37,732 nucleotides of DNA from a virus: the IMG/VR virus record IMGVR_UViG_3300021417_000007, positions 1 to 37,732 of that record. One strand, given 5' to 3'. Within the stretch, counting starts at the first letter, position 1. The number at the start of each line of letters is the position of its first letter. This document shows, one piece after another, positions 1 through 35,983 of the stretch. The notes below the pieces were generated by a model. That model ran no database searches and was not told where the DNA came from. It was given only the letters and a program-made list of their open reading frames with translations. Both the position numbers and the translations under genes were made by a program.

Positions 1-337
1 TCGGCCCGTTGCCCATGCGGCTGCCATAGGCGATGTTGGCGATCATTTCCTGATCGGCTTTCTGCACGCCTGGCACATAGCCAAGTTGATCGGCCTGCTC
101 CCTGGTGAAGCGACCCTTGAATCCGGAGACGGTCATCAGCCGATCAGGCCGGTAGCTCAGGTCCTCAATAACCTTGGTAAGGTTGGCTGACTCGTGCAGC
201 AGCTGGCTCACGAAGGCGGCCTGGCGCTTCGCCGTGCTAATACTGAAGCGTGCCATCGCATTATTCAGCGGGTCGATGTACAGCTTGGCGGTTCCAGGGC
301 GGACCTGGCCAATCGACATGAGCTGTTCGAGCGTCAC
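1..337 (-). CDS. Endolysin, glycoside hydrolase family 19 (partial, cut by window edge)
   Basis: This is the N-terminal 112 codons of a chitinase-like (GH19) phage lysin, which cleaves the glycan strand of peptidoglycan at the end of infection. The frame runs off the left window edge without a stop. The visible protein carries the family signature: AFVSQLLHESANLTKVIEDLSY, with the catalytic Glu in HES, then a GRFTREQADQLGY stretch and IANIAYGSRMGNG near the break, which matches the IAN-x-VYA-x-R-x-GN motif of GH19 lysins. The start is GTG at 337, overlapping the holin stop as GTGA, so it is probably translated by coupling to the holin. Its place right after a holin fits a lysis cassette. The remaining half of the catalytic domain and any spanin genes lie outside the window. 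Confidence 0.88.
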   Translation of the reverse strand, partial: MTLEQLMSIGQVRPGTAKLYIDPLNNAMARFSISTAKRQAAFVSQLLHESANLTKVIEDLSYRPDRLMTVSGFKGRFTREQADQLGYVPGVQKADQEMIANIAYGSRMGNGP

Positions 338-564
338 AGGGACACTCCCAGCGCGGCCAGGCGAGCTTTGCTTTCTCGCTCGGCCAGGTCCGCCTGTCGC
401 CGTTCGCGGGCGTTCTTCTGACGGGTGTACCAGAGGTTCAGAAACAACGTCGCCAGCGCCGTTACGATGCCTGCGATAACCCCCCACTGGTTGAGGGTCA
501 AGGATGCCCCGATTGACACTAACCCGCCGGCATAGCTGGTCAGTTCCGGTGCGGTAAATTTGCT
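334..564 (-). CDS. Holin, small single-span membrane protein
   Basis: This 76-residue protein has a short polar N-terminus (MSKFTAPELTSY), one long hydrophobic stretch at about residues 13-46 and a strongly charged C-terminal tail with RQKNARERRQADLAERESKAR. That layout fits small phage holins, which form lesions in the inner membrane and release the endolysin; it resembles the HP1-type holin families. The hydrophobic stretch could be one or two spans. An upstream in-frame Met at 615 exists, but ATG at 564 is preferred because an AAGG-like ribosome site precedes it and the extra 17 residues do not look like holin sequence. Its stop overlaps the endolysin start. Function is inferred from topology and position. 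Confidence 0.8.
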   Translation of the reverse strand, partial: SKFTAPELTSYAGGLVSIGASLTLNQWGVIAGIVTALATLFLNLWYTRQKNARERRQADLAERESKARLAALGVSL

Positions 565-670
565 CATTGGCGGCCTTGTGCGCATTGCACTCTTGGTGAG
601 TAGAGACGCCGCCAAGTAAATTCAGTATGGGACGTCGTTGAAAAAGAACGTTCCCAAGTTAACAATTGCC

Positions 671-700
671 TTGTCTCATTTCTAGGCAAAAATGAGACAA
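671..700. repeat. Hairpin repeat, copy 1 (perfect 11 bp stem, conserved loop)
   Basis: A perfect inverted repeat: arms TTGTCTCATTT and AAATGAGACAA around the loop CTAGGCAA. Related copies lie at 18848-18873 and 20723-20756. It sits 17 nt downstream of the stop of the tail-tip gene and about 107 nt before the holin start, in the otherwise empty stretch 565-717. No T tract follows on the minus strand, so it is not an ordinary intrinsic terminator. Confidence 0.85.
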
Positions 701-16725: not shown

Positions 16726-18804
16726 TTACGCGCCAGGGTTCTTGGCCATGGTGCGGAAGTCGAGCGCTTTCACGCCCGCGTCCAGCCGCACCTTGAAATC
16801 AACGCCGTCGATGTGCCAGCCGTTCTGCTGTTCGAGCGTCGGCGCCTGCTGCCCGTCGAGGTAGCTGACTTCGACCGTGTCGTGCTGGGCGCCGTTGGCG
16901 GTGCCGTACCAGGTGGCAGCCGAGGCCGCGTCCAGGCGAGCGTCCGAGATCACCTCGAAGGTGCCGCGCACCGAGTTCGGCACGGTGTTGTTCTTTGCTG
17001 CAGCGCCCACTTCGTACTCGCTGTCGCGCGTGACCTTGGCCGAACCTTCCAGCGCGACCGGCACGAGGATCTTGGCCAGGCGGATGTTCAGCGCGGCGGC
17101 AGTGCCGTCGGTCTGCTTGGCCATGGCGACGCGCATGGCATCGATACCGGCCGTGGTCACGCCGAGGCCGGCCAGCAGGTTGGCGTGGTCAGCATGGAAC
17201 AGCGCTTTACCGTCGGCCATCGCCGGATTGCTGGTCAGGATCGCGTACACCAGGTCGCCCACGGTGCGGATCGCTGCGCGACCCATCAGCTTCGGGATCT
17301 TGGTGAAGGCGCCCAGGTCGTCGTTGATGATGGTCTGGCGGGTTATCGAGAACAGCTTGCCGTAGGTGGCCAGCTGCACCGTCTCGCCACGCTCGCCGAT
17401 GTCGGCGTAGCGATATTCGCCGCCGTCCTGGATGCGGTCCAGGGTCGGGAAAGTGTTCAGGTCAACGCGCTTGCCCGGCTTGAAGTCACCCAGGCTGCCG
17501 ACAGTGGTCCACAGCTGGAAAGTCTCTTCGGCTTCTTCGTAGCCTTTCATCATCGCCTTTTCGGCGACGTTCGCCAGCAGCAGCGGGAAGTCCGAGCCGG
17601 TGTGCGTGAAAGCAGCGGAAACCAGTTCCATCTTGCCCAGGCCGCGAGTGCTGATGCCGGCTTGCACCAGGCATTCGCGGGCGATGTCCATGGCCGAATA
17701 GCCGCGGTAGTTGTTCGCGCCATCGTCCTTGCCCAGGTTGGCGCGCGCCATCAGCGACGCCTGGATGCCCGCGCGGAACTTGTCGCGCGAGTCTTCCAGG
17801 GTGACGATGTGGCTACCGGCGATCGGCGCCGAGCCGCTGCCCAGGTGAGCCAGCAGACGCAGCTGGGCAGCCTCGACGGTGCACGCGGTGTCAGCGGCGC
17901 AGGCAGCTTCGACGGCAGCGACGCCCGGCGCCGTTGCGAACTTCGCGAAGGCGGCCGAGATCGCGGTGCGACGAACGCCATCAGCGGCGAGCGCTGCGGC
18001 GACGATCTGCTCGTGGGTTTGTGCTGCTGGTGCGGCTGCAACTGGGGCTGCGACCGCCGCTGGATTCGATCCTGGCATGGTGTTGCTCTCCTTCGGAGTG
18101 GTAGTTGGTGTTGGCGCGGCGGCTGCCGCTGGGGTGGTTGGCTGCGGGAACGAAGCGAACCGCGCCTTGATGAGACTGTGCAGATTGGCCGACGCTGCAA
18201 CCGGCAGCGCCGAGATCACTGCATCGACCAGATTGGCTTCCAGCGCTTGCTCCGCGGTGTACCAGTGGTCCTTGCCGTCGAGCAGCATGGCGAGGATCTC
18301 GCCTTTGTCGCCGCCCGTCTTGGCGGCATAGCTGGTAGCCATGGCTTCCGCCCAGGTGTCGAGCATGTCGGCGTATTCGCGCAGGGCGACGCTGTTACCT
18401 TCCAGCCAGCCCCACGGTGCGTGCAGCATCATGGCTGCGTTCTCGGCCATCTCGACACGATCGCCGGCCATGGCGATCAGGCTGGCGATCGAGGCAGCGA
18501 TGCTGTCGATCACGGTCGTGACCGAGGCCTTGTGCCGCTTGAGCGAGTTGTAGATGGCGATGCCGTCAGTGACGGAGCCGCCGTAGCTGGAAATGCGGAC
18601 CGTCAGCTGCTCGACGTCGAGCGCGGCGACCTCGCGCACGAATTCATTGGCCGCGATCGTGTCGCCGTACCAACTCTCGCCGATGTCGCCGTATATCAGA
18701 ATTTCGGCAGCCGACGCCGAGGCACCGGCCGTAGCACGGGCGTGCGGACGAATCGTGTACCACTTCGGTGTCTGCTCTGCGGGTGTAGGGTTCGCGGTTG
18801 GCAT
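16726..18804 (-). CDS. Prohead protease / major capsid protein fusion
   Basis: A 692-residue protein joining two head functions. Residues about 30-205 are a ClpP-like (S14) protease: LIYGDIGESWYGDTIAANEFV, ISSYGGSVTDGIAIYNSLKRHKA, the nucleophile Ser105 in SIAASIAS, and His128 in MLHAPWGW. A Pro/Ala/Thr-rich linker spans about 220-270 and a helical, possibly scaffold-like region about 270-400. The C-terminal 300 residues are a capsid subunit (MELVSAAFTHTGSDFPLLLANVAEKAM, WTTVGSLGDFKPGKRV, ADIGERGETVQLATYGKLFSITRQTIINDDLGAF), similar to the Mu gpT-type head protein. Single-chain fusions of this type are known. Release of the capsid part by self-cleavage or by internal initiation at 18078 is an inference. 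An AAGGA ribosome site precedes the ATG at 18804. Confidence 0.88.
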   Translation of the reverse strand: MPTANPTPAEQTPKWYTIRPHARATAGASASAAEILIYGDIGESWYGDTIAANEFVREVAALDVEQLTVRISSYGGSVTDGIAIYNSLKRHKASVTTVIDSIAASIASLIAMAGDRVEMAENAAMMLHAPWGWLEGNSVALREYADMLDTWAEAMATSYAAKTGGDKGEILAMLLDGKDHWYTAEQALEANLVDAVISALPVAASANLHSLIKARFASFPQPTTPAAAAAPTPTTTPKESNTMPGSNPAAVAAPVAAAPAAQTHEQIVAAALAADGVRRTAISAAFAKFATAPGVAAVEAACAADTACTVEAAQLRLLAHLGSGSAPIAGSHIVTLEDSRDKFRAGIQASLMARANLGKDDGANNYRGYSAMDIARECLVQAGISTRGLGKMELVSAAFTHTGSDFPLLLANVAEKAMMKGYEEAEETFQLWTTVGSLGDFKPGKRVDLNTFPTLDRIQDGGEYRYADIGERGETVQLATYGKLFSITRQTIINDDLGAFTKIPKLMGRAAIRTVGDLVYAILTSNPAMADGKALFHADHANLLAGLGVTTAGIDAMRVAMAKQTDGTAAALNIRLAKILVPVALEGSAKVTRDSEYEVGAAAKNNTVPNSVRGTFEVISDARLDAASAATWYGTANGAQHDTVEVSYLDGQQAPTLEQQNGWHIDGVDFKVRLDAGVKALDFRTMAKNPGA
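18076..18093 (-). promoter_or_regulatory. Internal ribosome binding site and in-frame ATG inside the protease/capsid gene
   Basis: On the minus strand AAGGAGAG (18093-18086) precedes an in-frame ATG at 18078 (Met243) by 7 nt. This is among the best ribosome sites in the window. It would give a 450-residue scaffold-plus-capsid protein lacking the protease domain. Confidence 0.65.
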
Positions 18805-18847
18805 CTGGCTCTGTCCTTATTGAAGAGCTCAGTTTGCTTTTGATGGA

Positions 18848-18873
18848 GTCTCATTTCTAGGCAAAAATGCGAC
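18848..18873. repeat. Hairpin repeat, copy 2 (9 bp stem with one mismatch)
   Basis: Arms GTCTCATTT and AAATGCGAC around the same loop CTAGGCAA. The left arm matches copy 1 and the right arm matches copy 3, leaving one mismatched pair. It lies between the terminator after portal and the capsid gene start. Confidence 0.8.
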
Positions 18874-18886
18874 AATATTTCTGACC

Positions 18887-18908
18887 AAAAAAAACCGCCC
18901 GAAGGCGG
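18887..18908 (-). terminator. Intrinsic terminator after the portal gene
   Basis: On the minus strand CCGCC-TTCG-GGCGG is followed at once by eight T residues. It starts 19 nt after the portal stop. It should end or attenuate transcripts from the packaging genes before the capsid gene. Confidence 0.8.
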
Positions 18909-18927
18909 CAAAGAGACACTGGTTGGC

Positions 18928-20451
18928 TCAGGCCTCGGGGAGATCTTCCGGTGGTACCGGCGCCGCCGGCGGCGCCTTGACCTCGTTCATGAAGTCGGAG
19001 CTGAAGACCAGCCCCTTCTCCTTGCACAGCTTGCGATGGGCGGCAATCTGCTCGATCACGTCGCGCGGATTGGCGCCGCGCTTGCGCATCACCTCGACTT
19101 CGCTCGAGAAACCGTCCGACACCAGGGTGTGCCAGGCCATCGCTTCCTTCATCGGGTCGATCCAGGGCATCGACTGGCCGACGAAGAGCGCGTCGTCAGC
19201 GCTGTCCGGCGTCACGTCTTTCGGCATCGGCACGGCGCCTGACAGGTGGGCGGTCAGCACGAAGTCCTGCCAGACGGGCTCGACGAACTGACCCACAAAC
19301 TCGTCGGCCAGCACAGCGTAGTGGATCCACTGTTCCACCAGCTCCTGGCGCTGCGCCGAGTACGTGCCGTTGTAGTCGCGCGCAATGCTCGAGTAGCTAC
19401 CGCCCAGGCCGGCGGCGACTGCGCGCAGTTGGCCTTGGCGGAACGTGATCAGGTTCGGGTTGGGCCGGTTCGAATCGATCAGGCCGATCTCCTCGCCGAC
19501 GCCCAGGCTGTCGATGATCATGCCCGGGGAGAAGCTGATCTCCCGCGCTGCGGTGCCGGCCGCCTCCGGGTGCATGTCGGGCGAGCCCTTCTTGACGTAC
19601 GCGGTGAGCGACGCCGCGACCTTCGCCGCGATGCGTTCAGATTCCTCATATTCCTTGATGTCGGCCAGCCGCGTGATCACACTGGCAAATTCTGACACGC
19701 CCCGCATCTGTCCAATGCGGTCGACCGACGCAACGTGGAACATGCGGCCGGCGTCGACGCGCTTGACGTCGATGCCGCGCTTCGACCAGTTGTCGCCAGA
19801 TGGAAATGCCTTGTGCACGATGTAGGCCGTCGGCCGGCCCCACATGTTACGCTCGACGCCCTGCTGCACGCCCTTGTCCGGATCGTGGTAATCCATCGGC
19901 ACCAGGTCCGCTTCGAGCAGTTCGAGCGAGTACGGCACCGTCGTACCATGATCGAGGCCGGCCACCGGTCCCATCAGCCGCTGGCTGAAGCACTCGCCGT
20001 CGCGTATCCAGGTCTTGCACACCAGGCGCTGGACTTTGCTCCAGTGGTGGCGGTGCGTGACCTCGGGCGTGAGCGCCCAGTCGCGGTATGCGTTGCGCAG
20101 CGCCTGGGCGTATTCCTCGTGGATCGTGCCGTCCTTGCGGCGCGGCTGCGGCTCGATGCCGATGCCGGTGGCGCCGACCACGTTGTTGACCAGGACGCGC
20201 AGGGCCCCGCGGGCAATGTCATGATTCTGCTCGAGGTTCCGAGCCAGCGCGCGCAGTGCGGGGGCGCCCTGCTGCACCTGCTGGTCGGGGGAACGCGGGT
20301 CGGTACCTGAGCGACGCAGGCGCGATGGCTTGGCGGCGTCGTACTGGCTCAACACATGGCGCGCGCTCATGCGCTTCAGCGCAGCGCCTGGGGCGATGTA
20401 TGAGATGAGGCGGTCGACCACGTTCATTTCGATGCCAGCCTTCCGGTTCAT
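18928..20451 (-). CDS. Portal protein (lambda family)
   Basis: A 507-residue lambda-type portal, the dodecameric ring through which DNA is packaged and ejected. Landmarks are LARNLEQNHDIARGALRVLVNNVVGATGIGIEPQPR, TPEVTHRHHWSKVQRLVCKTWIRDGECFSQRL, YSLELLEADLVPMDY, RPTAYIVHKAFP, the conserved RMFHVASVDRIGQMRGVSEFASVITRLADIKEYEESERIAAKVAASLTAYV and SYSSIARDYNGTYSAQRQELVEQW. The start at 20451 (MNRKAGIEMN) overlaps the upstream stop as ATGA; a second Met eight codons on is also possible. The Pro/Ala-rich C-terminus is common in the family. Confidence 0.93.
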   Translation of the reverse strand: MNRKAGIEMNVVDRLISYIAPGAALKRMSARHVLSQYDAAKPSRLRRSGTDPRSPDQQVQQGAPALRALARNLEQNHDIARGALRVLVNNVVGATGIGIEPQPRRKDGTIHEEYAQALRNAYRDWALTPEVTHRHHWSKVQRLVCKTWIRDGECFSQRLMGPVAGLDHGTTVPYSLELLEADLVPMDYHDPDKGVQQGVERNMWGRPTAYIVHKAFPSGDNWSKRGIDVKRVDAGRMFHVASVDRIGQMRGVSEFASVITRLADIKEYEESERIAAKVAASLTAYVKKGSPDMHPEAAGTAAREISFSPGMIIDSLGVGEEIGLIDSNRPNPNLITFRQGQLRAVAAGLGGSYSSIARDYNGTYSAQRQELVEQWIHYAVLADEFVGQFVEPVWQDFVLTAHLSGAVPMPKDVTPDSADDALFVGQSMPWIDPMKEAMAWHTLVSDGFSSEVEVMRKRGANPRDVIEQIAAHRKLCKEKGLVFSSDFMNEVKAPPAAPVPPEDLPEA

Positions 20452-20681
20452 TGAGCGCCTCCGAAGTTTGCGACTGCGAAGGATAGGCCACCGAAGGCGG
20501 GCGTGCCGGCGGCCTGACGCTGCTCCTGGGCGACCCTGCCCTCCCATTCCTTGCGGCCGGCGATGATGGACGGCAGATCTTCCATGCGCAACTTGCGGTC
20601 CCCCAGGCTGACTTCCTTGCCTTCGAGGACCGCTGCTTCAGCGGCCAGGTATTTTGCGAGCATGTCTGATGCGGCGGTCAT
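20448..20681 (-). CDS. Small head-tail joining protein (gpW-like)
   Basis: A 77-residue protein in the position of lambda gpW, directly before the portal gene. It is helical and charged at the start (MTAASDMLAKYLAAEAAVLEGKEVSLGDRKLRMEDLPSIIAGRKEWEGRVAQEQ), where the pattern of an N-terminal helix, a short beta hairpin around EVSLGDRKLRMEDL and a second helix fits gpW. The C-terminal GGLSFAVANFGGA is likely disordered until bound. ATG at 20681 with GGAAG six bases upstream is preferred to the GTG at 20711. In lambda gpW binds the portal ring after packaging. Confidence 0.75.
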   Translation of the reverse strand: MTAASDMLAKYLAAEAAVLEGKEVSLGDRKLRMEDLPSIIAGRKEWEGRVAQEQRQAAGTPAFGGLSFAVANFGGAQ

Positions 20682-20722
20682 GAGTTGCTTCCGGGATGGG
20701 GGACGGCCCACGTTACTTGTTC

Positions 20723-20756
20723 GGGAGTCGCATTTCTAGGCAAAAATGCGACTCCC
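20723..20756. repeat. Hairpin repeat, copy 3 (perfect 13 bp stem)
   Basis: Arms GGGAGTCGCATTT and AAATGCGACTCCC enclose CTAGGCAA. It begins 17 nt after the stop of the gene at 20773-21387. The stem differs from copy 1 by paired changes that keep base pairing. Confidence 0.85.
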
Positions 20757-20772: not shown

Positions 20773-21387
20773 TCAGGCCAGTTCGACTGAAAACGCGGCT
20801 ATGCGCTCCTCCAGGATGTCAGAGTAGGTCGCCATGACAGCCGCCTGCTGCTGGAGCCGCTGCTGCTCAGCATCATCGAGAGTGCCGAAAATCGCAGTGC
20901 CGAAGAATGACCTCAGCTTGCCTGCCCTTTCGTCGAGCTCGCGCTTTTCGTCGATCACGCGCTGCTGGTGCGGCGGCACGGCAGTGCCGCCTGGATAGGC
21001 GATGTCAGGCGCGGGCTGGTGCAGTACATGTTCGAACATGGCGCGCGCTTCCTCAGCGTTGAGCAAATTTGTACCGGTGGGCCACCCAAGCGGGTGCTGC
21101 GGCGCCTTGAACGCAATGCCCGCATCCGGATGGAAGGTTTCTGGCAGCTTCCATCCGAGGAAGCGGTCGACGGCCGCCTTGACGTCCGGCGTGGGTGCTC
21201 GATAATGGCGGAGAATGTCGTGAGCAAGGGCGACCGCCTGGTCACGGCCGAGGATGATAGCGCTTGCATTGTTGTCACCTGCGCTGCGCACGGTAAGGAC
21301 CACATCGCTTGGACAGGCGACGCGTTTGCTGAGGTTGACGTAGGCCGGGCAGCTGGTGCCCTGGTCGGTAAATGCATGGATGGTCAT
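20773..21387 (-). CDS. Unknown phage protein with C-terminal helical domain (crAss001_48-like)
   Basis: A 204-residue protein between a Mor-type regulator and the gpW-like gene. The N-terminus (MTIHAFTDQGTSCPAYVNLSKR, then DVVLTVRSAGDNNASAIILGRDQAVALAHDIL) looks like a small beta domain. The middle carries FLGWKLPETFHPDAGIAFKAP and WPTGTNLLNAEEARAMFEHVL, a pattern I know from many phage proteins of unknown function. The C-terminal 60 residues (DERAGKLRSFFGTAIFGTLDDAEQQRLQQQAAVMATYSDILEERIAAF) fit the helical domain called crAss001_48-related. It is hydrophilic with no membrane segments. It is unusual inside a head-gene block, and no function is assigned. Confidence 0.6.
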   Translation of the reverse strand: MTIHAFTDQGTSCPAYVNLSKRVACPSDVVLTVRSAGDNNASAIILGRDQAVALAHDILRHYRAPTPDVKAAVDRFLGWKLPETFHPDAGIAFKAPQHPLGWPTGTNLLNAEEARAMFEHVLHQPAPDIAYPGGTAVPPHQQRVIDEKRELDERAGKLRSFFGTAIFGTLDDAEQQRLQQQAAVMATYSDILEERIAAFSVELA

Positions 21388-21457: not shown

Positions 21458-21829
21458 TTAGCCGCCGGCGATGATCTTGTAGAAATGGCCGCGGCTGAGA
21501 CCGTACTCGGCCATGAGCTCGCGGCGGTTGCACATGTCGTAGCGCGCGCGGATTTCGCTGGCTCGGGCGTGCGCGTCGGTCTGCTTTTTCACGTAGACCC
21601 TCTCCCCGCCCCAGCAGGTGCGCAGTTTCGTTTCGATCTCCTTCTCGGCTTCCGGCGTGAACACCGCGCCCAACGATTCACGCACGGCCGCGAGCATGGC
21701 GCCAATGATGTCGATTTCCTGCACCTGCGTGGCGGCGGTCTCCTGGTCGACCGCTCTTCCGTGGCGAAGCACCGTGGGATGCCGGGCATGTGACCTGGTG
21801 CCGATGATGCCGATTTCTTCTATTTGCAT
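21458..21829 (-). CDS. Mor-family transcription activator-like protein
   Basis: A 123-residue protein whose C-terminal part matches the Mor/C family of phage Mu: a helical dimerisation region (EIDIIGAMLAAVRESLGAVFTPEAEKEIETKLRTCWGGERVYVKKQ) with the family's GGxxVYV strand, then a helix-turn-helix IRARYDMCNRRELMAEYGLSRGHFYKII. Mor and C switch on middle and late promoters in Mu by recruiting RNA polymerase. Here the gene directly abuts the large terminase stop (TAA then ATG), inside the packaging and head block rather than in an early region, so it might amplify expression of the head and tail genes further on. The target promoter is not evident. Confidence 0.7.
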   Translation of the reverse strand: MQIEEIGIIGTRSHARHPTVLRHGRAVDQETAATQVQEIDIIGAMLAAVRESLGAVFTPEAEKEIETKLRTCWGGERVYVKKQTDAHARASEIRARYDMCNRRELMAEYGLSRGHFYKIIAGG

Positions 21830-29442: not shown

Positions 29443-30099
29443 ATGGATATTGTTGAGACAAGACGTGAGAATTTGCGCCGCTGGGTTGCCGCGAATGGGA
29501 CGCCTGCGAAGGAACGAAGCTTCTTTTCACAGTTGCAGAAAGATGCATCCTTTGGTGAGCGAGTAGCTAGACGCCTGGAGAAACAGTACAAGATGGGCGA
29601 TGGTTACTTGGATAAACCTCTAAACACGCAGACAAGTAGCCAAAGCATTCCGTTCGACGAGAACGTCGTTCCTGCAACGATAGGCCTTCGCCCGATCCCA
29701 GTCATTTCATCAGTGCAGGCCGGCGCGTTGCGTGACATGGACAATCCTTACAGCCCAGGTGATGGGTATGCCTACGAGTACACGGATCAGGACTTATCGC
29801 CATGGGCTTTTGCTCTTGACGTTGAAGGGCTCTCGATGAGCCCGGAGTTTCGTCCTGGGGACAGGATTATTGTCGAACCTGAAATGTCACCAAACCCCGG
29901 AGATTTCGTCGTAGCACGAAACGGAAGTGAGCAAGCAACTTTTAAGAAATACCGGCCGCGCGGAATCGACTCTTCGGGGAATATGATTTTTGAACTTGTC
30001 CCGCTGAACGACGATTACCCGACTCTTCGTAGCGATACCGAGCACTTATCGGTAATAGGCGTGGTAACCGAGCATCGAAAGAAGCTGCGAAGATCTTAA
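29443..30099 (+). CDS. CI-type prophage repressor with S24 self-cleavage domain
   Basis: A 218-residue LexA/CI-fold repressor that maintains lysogeny. The N-terminal 55 residues (MDIVETRRENLRRWVAANGTPAKERSFFSQLQ, then FGERVARRLEKQYKMGDGYLD) are a helical DNA-binding domain. The S24 domain has the cleavage site Ala93-Gly94 in SVQAGALRD, nucleophile Ser131 in GLSMSPEFRPGDRIIVEP and general-base Lys168 or Lys169 in ATFKKY. All elements for RecA-stimulated autocleavage are present, so SOS induction is expected. No ribosome site precedes the ATG, suggesting a leaderless or very short-leader message. O3 overlaps the promoter region. Base composition is less GC-rich than the late genes. Confidence 0.92.
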   Translation: MDIVETRRENLRRWVAANGTPAKERSFFSQLQKDASFGERVARRLEKQYKMGDGYLDKPLNTQTSSQSIPFDENVVPATIGLRPIPVISSVQAGALRDMDNPYSPGDGYAYEYTDQDLSPWAFALDVEGLSMSPEFRPGDRIIVEPEMSPNPGDFVVARNGSEQATFKKYRPRGIDSSGNMIFELVPLNDDYPTLRSDTEHLSVIGVVTEHRKKLRRS

Positions 30100-30103
30100 T
30101 CGC

Positions 30104-30553
30104 GTGAGTTATTACGAATCTGCCAAAATCGATATTATCGAGGTTCCCCGTATAAAACTAAGGCTCCGCGCCGGATCTTCTAGTTACGATACCGTCCCCG
30201 ACTTGTCAAGCCTGGAGCCGCTGCGAGTGTTGACTCCTGAACTCGGGTCGCTGGGCTTATTTCCGCAGCGCCTCCTAGCTATGCGGGTGCGCGACCAGGG
30301 GATGGAGCCAATGCTTTTTGAGGATGACTGGATTGTAATTGATACAGGCGATACCGTCCCACGAAGCCGCGAGGTTTTTGCCATAAACTGGAACGGTGAG
30401 GCGTGCGTGCAGCAACTAGTTGAGCGAGGTGGCCAGTGGTATCTGAGTTCAGTGAATCCGGATTTCAAGCCTATAAACACTCGTAGTGGCCAGATAAGCA
30501 TTGTCGGTCGCGTGGTGTATCAGCCGGGTCGAAGGATTGGTGGACGACTGTAA
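30104..30553 (+). CDS. S24-fold protein lacking both catalytic residues and the DNA-binding domain
   Basis: A 149-residue protein starting at GTG, four bases after the cI stop. Residues 58-145 align well with the S24 peptidase domain: LLAMRVRDQGMEPMLFEDDWIVIDTGDTVPRSREVFAINWNGEACVQQLVERGGQWYLSSVNPDF. The usual S-M-E-P nucleophile motif reads G-M-E-P (Gly66), and the usual V-K-R-L reads V-Q-Q-L (Gln103), so both the Ser and the Lys are gone. The N-terminal 55 residues have no helix-turn-helix. It should fold and perhaps pair with CI or a host S24 protein but cannot cleave itself. Co-transcription with cI implies a role in lysogens. The function is unknown. Confidence 0.75.
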   Translation: MSYYESAKIDIIEVPRIKLRLRAGSSSYDTVPDLSSLEPLRVLTPELGSLGLFPQRLLAMRVRDQGMEPMLFEDDWIVIDTGDTVPRSREVFAINWNGEACVQQLVERGGQWYLSSVNPDFKPINTRSGQISIVGRVVYQPGRRIGGRL

Positions 30554-33593: not shown

Positions 33594-34100
33594 ATGGATA
33601 TGCAAACCTGCGGCATCACGACCATCGCGATCGATTGGCACCCGGTGGCCAGCGGCTTCCCGGACGACGACACGACCGTCTTGGTCGCACTGGACGACAA
33701 AGAGGTGTACACGGCCTACCGCGACGCCGGCAACTGGCGCGCGATCGACTCCTCGCCGCTCCCTGAGGAGTGCGTCACGCACTGGGCGCACATGCCGCCG
33801 GCACCAGGCGAGGAGTATTCAGCACCTGCGCGAACCGCAGCACCGGTGCTCCTGCCGCTGAACGAGCAGACCACCATAATCCTCGGCCGCGCCGACTTTG
33901 CCTGCGCCCGTACGGCGCAGCGCCTGCGCGAGCTCGGCCACAAGATCGGTCGCAACAACCAGGAAGAGCAGGCGGCTGTCATCCACCTGCATGTGAACAT
34001 GTACCAGGTGCACGGCGCCGCGTGGTTCCAGCATGCGAATGCTTATCTGGACCAGGGGCGGCCGGCGGCAGAATTCGCACAGGCAAAGGCGACGGCGTAA
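33594..34100 (+). CDS. DUF551-containing protein
   Basis: A 168-residue protein. Residues 12-68 match DUF551: IAIDWHPVASGFPDDDTTVLVALDDKEVYTAYRDAGNWRAIDSSPLPEECVTHWAHMPPAP, with the WHPV start and VTHWAHMPPAP end typical of that domain. The C-terminal half (LPLNEQTTIILGRADFACARTAQRLRELGHKIGRNNQEEQAAVIHLHVNMYQVHGAAWFQHANAYL) is a second domain that I know only as a frequent partner in phage early genes. An AGGAG ribosome site precedes the ATG at 33594, which decides against the start 33 bases upstream. The role is unknown. Confidence 0.72.
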   Translation: MDMQTCGITTIAIDWHPVASGFPDDDTTVLVALDDKEVYTAYRDAGNWRAIDSSPLPEECVTHWAHMPPAPGEEYSAPARTAAPVLLPLNEQTTIILGRADFACARTAQRLRELGHKIGRNNQEEQAAVIHLHVNMYQVHGAAWFQHANAYLDQGRPAAEFAQAKATA

Positions 34101-35983
34101 TGAAGCGCGACGCCTTCACCTTCGACCTCGGTTTCGGTCCCGAACGCATTGCCGACAACTTCGCCGGCGGCGGCGGCGCCAGCGAGGCAATCCGCCAGGC
34201 ATTCGGCCGCGATCCGGACATCGCCATCAACCACGATGGCGAGGCCTTGGCCATGCACGCGGCGAACCACCCAACCACGCGCCACCTCACCGAAGACGTC
34301 TTCCTGGTGGATCCGCTGCGCGAGCTCGGCGATGGCCCACTCGGCGCGGTCTGGTTTTCCCCGACGTGCACGCACTTCTCGAAGGCCAAAGGCTTCAACA
34401 TCCTCGACCAGAAGACACGCGGCCTGGCGTGGGTCACGTATAAATGGGGCGTGCTGTTGGCGCCGCGCCTGATGTTCCTTGAGAACGTCGAAGAATTCCA
34501 GGGCTGGGGACCGCTGGACGATCACGGCCGACCGGTCAAGGCCCTGAAGGGCCGCACGTTCGAGGCGTTCGTGCTGGGCCTGACCACGGGCCTGCCGAGG
34601 GACCACCCCGACCTGCCGGAGATCGTCAAGACGCTGGGTCCGGACTTCCCGATCGAACGCATCATCGCCGGCCTGGGCTACAAGGTCGAATGGCGCGTGC
34701 TGCGCGCGTGCGACTTCGGCGCCGGCACGATCCGCAAGCGCCTGTTCATGGTCATGCGTCGCGACGGCATCGCCATCCGCTGGCCGGCGCCTACGCATGG
34801 CGATCCGAACTCGCTCGCCGTGAAGTCGGGCAAGCTGCTGCCGTTCGTCACCGCGGCGGACTGCATCGACTGGTCGATCCCATGCCGCTCCATCTTCGGC
34901 CGCAAGAAGCCGCTGGCGGAAGCAACGCTGCGGCGTGTCGGGCGCGGGTTCGAGCGCTACGTAAAGGATGCGGCACGCCCCTTCATCGTGCCGCTGACGC
35001 ACCAGGGCACCGACCGTGTCAATTCAATCGACGACCCGCTGCCTACGGTCACCTGCGCGAACCGCGGTGAACTGGCGCTTGTGTCGGCGTCTTTGGTCCA
35101 GATGGGCTATGGCGAAGCCCCAGGGCAGGCGCCGCGCGCGCTGGACATCAGAGAGCCGCTGGGCACGATCGTCGCTGGCGGCGGCAAACACGCGATGGTC
35201 GCCGCCTCGCTGGTCCAGTACTACAAGAGCGGCAGCCAGAACGTGTCGGCGGACCGACCGATGCCCACCATCGTGACGAAGGACCGCGTTGGCGTCACCT
35301 GCGCCTATCTGGCGAAGCATTACAAGGGCGTGATCGGCGCCAGTGTCGAGCAGCCTACGCCGACCGTGACGACATCGGACCACACCTCGCTCATCACCGC
35401 GCACCTGGTCGGCATCGACAACCAGAGCAATGGCGCGCGCGACACGTGGGACGTCGCCCAGCCGCTGAACACGATCGTGACCGAAAACCGCCATGCGGTC
35501 GTGACCAGCAACCTGGTGAAGCTGCGCGGCACCAGCACCGCAGCTGCCGTCGACGCGCCGCTGGGAGCAATCACGGCCGGCGGCCAGCATCACGCCGAGA
35601 TGCGCACCACGCTCGCGTATCCGGGTCAGACCTCGGAGCGCCGGGAGCAGGTGCGCGTCTTCCTGCGCGCGTACTGTCCAAGCCTAAAGGAAGCCGAGTT
35701 TCCTGAACTTGTGACGATCGACGGCGTGGTCTATGAGGTGCTCGACATCGGCCTGCGCATGCTGGTTCCGCGCGAGCTGGCCAACGCCCAAGGCTTCCCG
35801 CGCAGCTACATCCTGGACCCATTCTTCACGAAGATCTGCAAACGCGGCCGCACCGTTACCCGACGCCTGTCGGGCAGCGCCCAGGTCCGGATGATCGGCA
35901 ACAGCGTGGCGCCACCGCCGGCCGTCGCTGTGATCCGGGCAAACATTGCATACGAAGCCGAGCTTACGCGCTTGGCGGCCTGA
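34100..35983 (+). CDS. DNA cytosine-C5 methyltransferase with repeat-containing variable region
   Basis: A 627-residue C5-MTase with no restriction partner in view. Motif I is NFAGGGGASEA, motif IV WFSPTCTHFSKAKG with the catalytic Cys90, motif VI FLENVEEF with Glu128, motif VIII TIRKRLFMV, motif IX RELANAQGFP and motif X GNSVAPPPAVAVI. All needed residues are present, although the usual Pro before the Cys is Thr, as in some phage enzymes. Residues about 308-508, where the target-recognition region should lie, hold six imperfect repeats of 27-40 residues with the core PLPTIVT and HAxVxAxLV. It probably protects phage DNA from host restriction. ATG at 34100 overlaps the previous stop by one base; the longer frame from 33770 is antisense-like. 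Confidence 0.9.
   Translation: MKRDAFTFDLGFGPERIADNFAGGGGASEAIRQAFGRDPDIAINHDGEALAMHAANHPTTRHLTEDVFLVDPLRELGDGPLGAVWFSPTCTHFSKAKGFNILDQKTRGLAWVTYKWGVLLAPRLMFLENVEEFQGWGPLDDHGRPVKALKGRTFEAFVLGLTTGLPRDHPDLPEIVKTLGPDFPIERIIAGLGYKVEWRVLRACDFGAGTIRKRLFMVMRRDGIAIRWPAPTHGDPNSLAVKSGKLLPFVTAADCIDWSIPCRSIFGRKKPLAEATLRRVGRGFERYVKDAARPFIVPLTHQGTDRVNSIDDPLPTVTCANRGELALVSASLVQMGYGEAPGQAPRALDIREPLGTIVAGGGKHAMVAASLVQYYKSGSQNVSADRPMPTIVTKDRVGVTCAYLAKHYKGVIGASVEQPTPTVTTSDHTSLITAHLVGIDNQSNGARDTWDVAQPLNTIVTENRHAVVTSNLVKLRGTSTAAAVDAPLGAITAGGQHHAEMRTTLAYPGQTSERREQVRVFLRAYCPSLKEAEFPELVTIDGVVYEVLDIGLRMLVPRELANAQGFPRSYILDPFFTKICKRGRTVTRRLSGSAQVRMIGNSVAPPPAVAVIRANIAYEAELTRLAA

Follow-up and report, generated by a model that had tools for sequence, protein, structure and literature searches.

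Three palindromes located between the late genes of the analyzed virus are very probably DNA operators of a Mor-like late activator, built into sigma70-type late promoters, and not RNA hairpins. This assignment is based on comparison of the window with the sequences of related phages. The window is the whole stretch of DNA that was analyzed (37,732 nt) and represents the entire virus record, which may itself be a fragment.

The core sequence CATTTCTAGGCAAAAATG was found in the window in three exact copies (677–694, 18852–18869 and 20731–20748; 0 mismatches), compared with about 0.01 copies expected by chance from shuffled sequences, and a search of the window with up to 3 mismatches revealed no fourth copy. 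Thus, the three-copy core reported in the preliminary description was confirmed, as was the perfect pairing of copies 1 and 3, which spans positions 671–700 and 20723–20756, respectively. Copy 2 combines an arm of the GTCTC type with one of the GTCGC type, which results in one broken pair. Comparison with relatives defined the conserved unit as a 26-bp element, GTCnnnTTT-N8-AAAnnnGAC; farther out, the pairs TTG/CAA and GGGA/TCCC are not kept in the relatives. The functional strand is the minus strand, which carries all late genes. The palindromes are as follows:

673–698, minus strand: copy 1, GTCTCATTT-ttgcctag-AAATGAGAC, 26 bp, operator-like, upstream of the holin gene
18848–18873, minus strand: copy 2, GTCGCATTT-ttgcctag-AAATGAGAC, operator-like, one unpaired position, upstream of the protease-capsid gene
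20727–20752, minus strand: copy 3, GTCGCATTT-ttgcctag-AAATGCGAC, operator-like, upstream of gpW and portal

The minus strand of the window contains a lambda-type structural module. In the order of transcription, it begins with the genes of the small and large terminase subunits, a Mor-family gene, a crAss001_48-type gene and copy 3. Then follow gpW, the portal gene, a terminator, copy 2, the protease-capsid fusion, decoration, connector and tail genes, copy 1 and the holin gene. The relevant features are:

21458–21829, minus strand: Mor/C-family transcription activator gene, 123 aa, PF08765 above the cut-off, proposed reader of the palindromes
20448–20681, minus strand: gpW-like head-tail adaptor (phrog_118), ATG at 20681 (GTG at 20711 in the ORF list), first gene after copy 3
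18928–20547, minus strand: portal protein (phrog_21)
18887–18909, minus strand: intrinsic terminator GCCGCC-TTCG-GGCGG-T8, ending the portal unit directly upstream of copy 2
16726–18804, minus strand: head maturation protease fused to the major capsid protein (phrog_133 and phrog_4523), first gene after copy 2
334–567, minus strand: holin (phrog_20), ATG at 567, first gene after copy 1

Each of the three copies stands in front of a transcription block of late genes (gpW-portal, protease-capsid or holin), in agreement with their earlier placement at late-operon boundaries. The gene at 20773–21387 was considered as a regulator and dropped; it encodes the crAss001_48-type protein, and the candidate is the next gene upstream, Mor. 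The plus strand of the window contains two adjacent S24-peptidase-like (CI/UmuD-type) genes (29443–30099 and 30104–30553) and a gene encoding a 737-aa DNA methyltransferase-like protein (33770–35983). The latter protein is far longer than its matched profile stretch, which suggests a long internal insertion.

Palindromes were selected by their arms only (GTC...GAC, at least four of the six outer pairs, AAA as the right inner triplet), and the -10 region was ignored. The selection contained 74 non-redundant rows, namely 66 genuine sites, six opposite-strand readings of counted sites and two background rows. In each of the 66 genuine sites, the late-gene strand carried a sigma70-type -10 hexamer (nAnnnT) exactly 11 nt past the palindrome. 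Its positions 2 and 6 are the two most constrained ones in the sigma70 -10 element. At the next-best offset, A and T occupied these positions in 9/74 rows, and the signature was absent from all six opposite-strand rows. Both the spacing and the direction of the putative -10 element relative to the palindrome are therefore fixed. The hexamer is mostly TAnnnT before gpW and nAnACT before the protease. In the window, the predicted promoter elements are:

656–661, minus strand: -10-like hexamer TAACTT of copy 1, 11 nt past the palindrome
679–684, minus strand: -35-like hexamer TAGAAA within copy 1, 17-nt spacer to the -10 hexamer
18831–18836, minus strand: -10-like hexamer CAAACT of copy 2, protease ATG 26 nt after it
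18854–18859, minus strand: -35-like hexamer TAGAAA within copy 2, read from the sequence
20710–20715, minus strand: -10-like hexamer TAACGT of copy 3, gpW ATG (20681) 28 nt after it
20733–20738, minus strand: -35-like hexamer TAGAAA within copy 3, read from the sequence

When the -10 hexamer is set at -12 to -7, the palindrome lies at about -49 to -24 and TAGAAA at -35 to -30, with a spacer of 17 bp. TAGAAA matches TTGACA at 4/6 positions, i.e., a weak -35 element is combined with a recognisable -10 element, and the dyad-symmetric palindrome overlaps the -35 region, as is expected of a Mor/C-dependent promoter. A start codon with a Shine-Dalgarno-like sequence was found downstream in 59/66 sites. 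The distance from the -10 end to the start codon has an interquartile range of 26–30 nt over these sites and amounts to 28 nt (gpW), 26 nt (protease) and 88 nt (holin, copy 1) in the window. Many sites also contain an A-rich run just upstream of the palindrome, placed approximately like the proximal UP subsite of Mu Pm (PMC4390567). Each copy is thus a predicted late promoter with the palindrome built in. A position-weight matrix, trained mostly on the relatives' sites, gave the three window sites scores of 51–62 bits; in the rest of the window, nothing scored 0 or more except the same three palindromes on the opposite strand. Reading of the hairpin as part of a coding sequence (SHFCLEM...) was dropped, as only the 26-bp element and the -10 hexamer are conserved; in addition, this frame stops short of the downstream gene.

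A portal-based search revealed 68 related viral loci, and most of them carry the same palindrome type before gpW and before the protease, with letters changed. The element recurs at the same gene junctions as GTCTCATTT-N8-AAATGAGAC with letter changes, so its conservation in related phages, and with it selection on the element, was borne out. The letters vary between GTCTCA, GTCCCA, GTCGCA, GTCCAC, GTCTCC and GTCCAG, and GTGACA or ATCCGG was found in distant relatives. The loop, described previously as invariant, is identical (ttgcctag) in the three window copies and mostly uniform within one phage, but three relatives (L132, L138 and L146) use two loops each. A third copy was found 12–18 kb off in eleven contigs. 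In the relatives, it precedes a small gene, which was attributed to phrog_1024 (unknown function) in 4/5 classified cases and weakly matched phrog_24782 in 1/5; therefore, an association with lysis genes was seen in the window alone.

The strong terminator at 18887–18909 adjoins copy 2, and terminators of this sort lie before many protease-type sites of the relatives. According to a rough rule for splitting the sites into protease, gpW and third-copy classes, a terminator precedes 18/45 protease-type sites and none of the gpW-type or third-copy sites. In nine relatives (L133, L149, L153, L156–L158, L160, L163 and L171), portal and protease are separated by 2–6 kb of additional DNA, computed gaps being unreliable where the portal match is fragmented. 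In relatives with such DNA, the site is still located 24–29 nt before the protease start. Annotated records were used for comparison with more distant lambda-like phages. F10 and Chris1 have no room for such promoters, as their genes for terminase, gpW, portal and protease adjoin or overlap one another; in yong2, 64 nt are free before the protease.

Note that the 14-mer TTTCTAGGCAAAAA, searched across IMG/VR, gave mostly chance matches and was abandoned. Among the records fetched with it, only L058 (IMGVR_UViG_3300047480_000707) had a long stem around the 14-mer, namely a similar long palindrome, TGTGACATTTTCTAGGCAAAAAATGTCACA, at about 2488–2501 of an unrelated-looking viral contig.

The Mor gene is located just upstream of copy 3. 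Its product scored 27.6 bits against PF08765 (cut-off 24.9) and 27.8 bits in another search. A profile of 17 Mor homologues matched the structure of Mu Mor (PDB 1rr7, E 3.7e-10) and structures of the late activator C (9l0x, 6e-8; 9vw8, 8.5e-8); residues G74, G75, Y79 and Y117 are invariant. A PF08765 Mor was found in 45/49 searched records, including the window. In the 62 relatives with enough upstream DNA, Mor and the site occurred together in 50, Mor without a site in 4, neither in 8 and the site without Mor in 0, with three of the sites (L169, L176 and L180) added by looser criteria. The Fisher p of this co-occurrence is 1.5e-7, the value being optimistic because the rows are related. In the predicted helix-turn-helix, Arg in S-R-x-Q-F-Y accompanies TAG at -35 and Lys accompanies TGT in every case; L166 and L187, which were checked after the rule had been noticed, fit it too. 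In the Mor of L150 and L162 (G016 and G023), an insertion of about 9 residues follows VKKG; some of the sequence present in L162 is missing from the L150 gene, and the match in L162 had one in-frame stop.

We suggest that each palindrome acts as a double-stranded DNA operator inside a sigma70-type late promoter, at about -49 to -24 over the weak -35 element. A dimer of the Mor/C-family protein would bind both half-sites and recruit or stabilise RNA polymerase at promoters that are weak alone, so that the gpW-portal, protease-capsid-tail and holin-lysis units would be switched on together. By analogy with Mu, Mor may be made from the upstream block along with terminase. Binding by Mor and activation rather than repression are inferred indirectly, from the co-occurrence and from the correlation between helix and site, and the timing is likewise an inference; a late repressor would occupy the same promoter place.

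Several observations fit the proposed Mor operator less well. The dyad geometry is not that of Mu (26 bp at about -36.5 versus 16 bp at -43.5), four Mor-bearing relatives (L170, L174, L177 and L178) have no recognised site, and neither the Mor-site association nor the Lys/TGT switch is phylogenetically independent, TGT at -35 having arisen once on the tree. The unusual dyad spacing would be accommodated if the palindromes were operators for another regulator of the phage or its host, either an activator or a repressor, and Mor were not involved; the window also carries CI-like regulators (29443–30099). We consider this unlikely, because no site was found in any of the eight relatives that lack Mor and in which the region is covered, the Mor gene is near copy 3, and the change in its recognition helix tracks the site sequence.

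The preliminary description interpreted the element as a hairpin with a covarying stem and listed RNA processing among its possible roles; in a polycistronic late mRNA, such a hairpin could also be a stabiliser or a site for an RNA-binding protein. The symmetric stem changes, the loop mostly kept within a phage and the position about 40–50 nt upstream of most start codons are consistent with this. However, an RNA hairpin should hold both arms equally and tolerate G-U better than A-C, and neither was observed. A selection rule that treats both arms alike gave 64 non-redundant sites. In 21 of them, changes of the inner triplet were confined to the left arm, and in 0 they were confined to the right arm (p = 1e-6): the right-arm AAA, which would be conserved because it also belongs to the -35 element, is invariant, whereas the left-arm TTT is variable. 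Mismatches over all nine pairs included 13 G-U, 24 A-C and 13 other. G-U prevailed over A-C (13 versus 7) in the outer six pairs on the coding strand, mostly owing to one clade, and an early G-U strand bias was gone over all nine pairs and non-redundant sites. The arms mix half-site variants freely, as in copy 2 of the window. Symmetric change is also expected of a two-fold operator, so covariation is no proof of RNA structure. An Rfam search gave no match at either threshold. Furthermore, an RNA hairpin leaves the fixed -10 hexamer without explanation, and terminators lie directly upstream of many protease-type sites. Thus, the hairpin interpretation, including a processing site, appears very improbable, and the evidence favours another option named earlier, a protein-binding site.

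A recombination boundary sequence or a small mobile palindrome was also proposed, and the copies do lie at module borders with a mostly uniform loop in each phage. Lambdoid boundary sequences and REP elements are short repeated palindromes at gene borders; unlike them, the palindromes found here come with a promoter signature of defined direction and show no dispersal through host genomes. A genome scan gave 8 exact matches in 257 Gb, scattered over phyla and close to the chance level, which also speaks against a host REP-like repeat. Moreover, the palindromes occupy orthologous positions even in phages whose portal identity is only about 60%, the flanks are unique, and loops can differ within one phage. 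A mobile palindrome is disfavoured and a recombination boundary is unnecessary for explaining the data; only a minimal probability can be assigned to either.

The Mor operator proposed here resembles known systems in part. The dyads bound by Mu Mor and C coincide with or adjoin the -35 position of promoters without a good -35 element; Mor, as a dimer, occupies a dyad that replaces -35, acting together with sigma and the C-terminal domain of alpha, and C activates four late promoters via related dyads (PMC4390567, PMC4287176, PMC4461284). As at Mu Pm, there is a phage-encoded PF08765 activator (profile match 1rr7), a dyad over the -35 region, a recognisable -10 without a good -35 and an A-rich proximal UP-like stretch (PMC4390567, PMC4287176). 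However, the Mu Mor site, which spans 16 bp with two 5-bp repeats and has its centre at -43.5 (PMC4390567), serves one middle promoter, whereas the 26-bp dyad found here has its centre near -36.5, reaches into the -35/-10 spacer and belongs to a lambda-like structural module, where it is present at three late promoters. The Mu Mor geometry was not found in the window palindromes. The arrangement is also similar to that of Mu Plys, PI, PP and Pmom with C, where one activator of the same family serves several late operons, including lysis, via related dyads. At Pmom, the C site overlaps -35 (PMC4461284), as the palindromes do here. The Mu Plys region contains a TAGACT hexamer like the nAnACT described above, its -10 role being our own reading. 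The dyads of the Mu late promoters differ in sequence, length and position, and the phage studied here has lambda-type terminase, gpW and portal genes and no Mu-type transposition and head genes.

In P2-type phages, several late operons are each preceded by the same dyad and are controlled by one phage activator, Ogr/Delta. Ogr is a zinc-finger protein, and its site is TGT-N12-ACA near -55. The general scheme is therefore alike, but the protein and the site are unrelated. Mor/C-family activators and multi-site late control are already known; what appears new from the sequences is a 26-bp operator with its centre near -36.5, which serves a lambda-type module and exists in many natural variants. 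No published description of these sites was found in the part of the literature covered. In a tblastn search of 50,697 phage records, the window Mor had no match and a relative's Mor had one weak match, so the group appears to be absent from that set of deposited genomes; it was seen here only as metagenome-derived and provirus contigs.

The chances are about even that these Mor proteins read a non-Mu operator, a 26-bp dyad centred at -36.5 with half-sites approximately two helical turns apart. If so, RNA polymerase would be activated from another position or in another conformation than with Mu Mor and C, and a lambda-type head module that otherwise has no internal promoters would have acquired this late switch. 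The puzzling hairpin becomes a testable regulatory circuit, and it warns that symmetric change of a palindrome alone is no evidence of RNA structure. In this phage group, one activator would turn on the head, tail and lysis genes via a promoter code of 50 bp, which can be read from the sequence and differs from phage to phage. This code would be a means of predicting late promoters in uncultured phages, and the dozens of natural activator/operator pairs could be used for studying DNA recognition by the little-studied Mor/C family.
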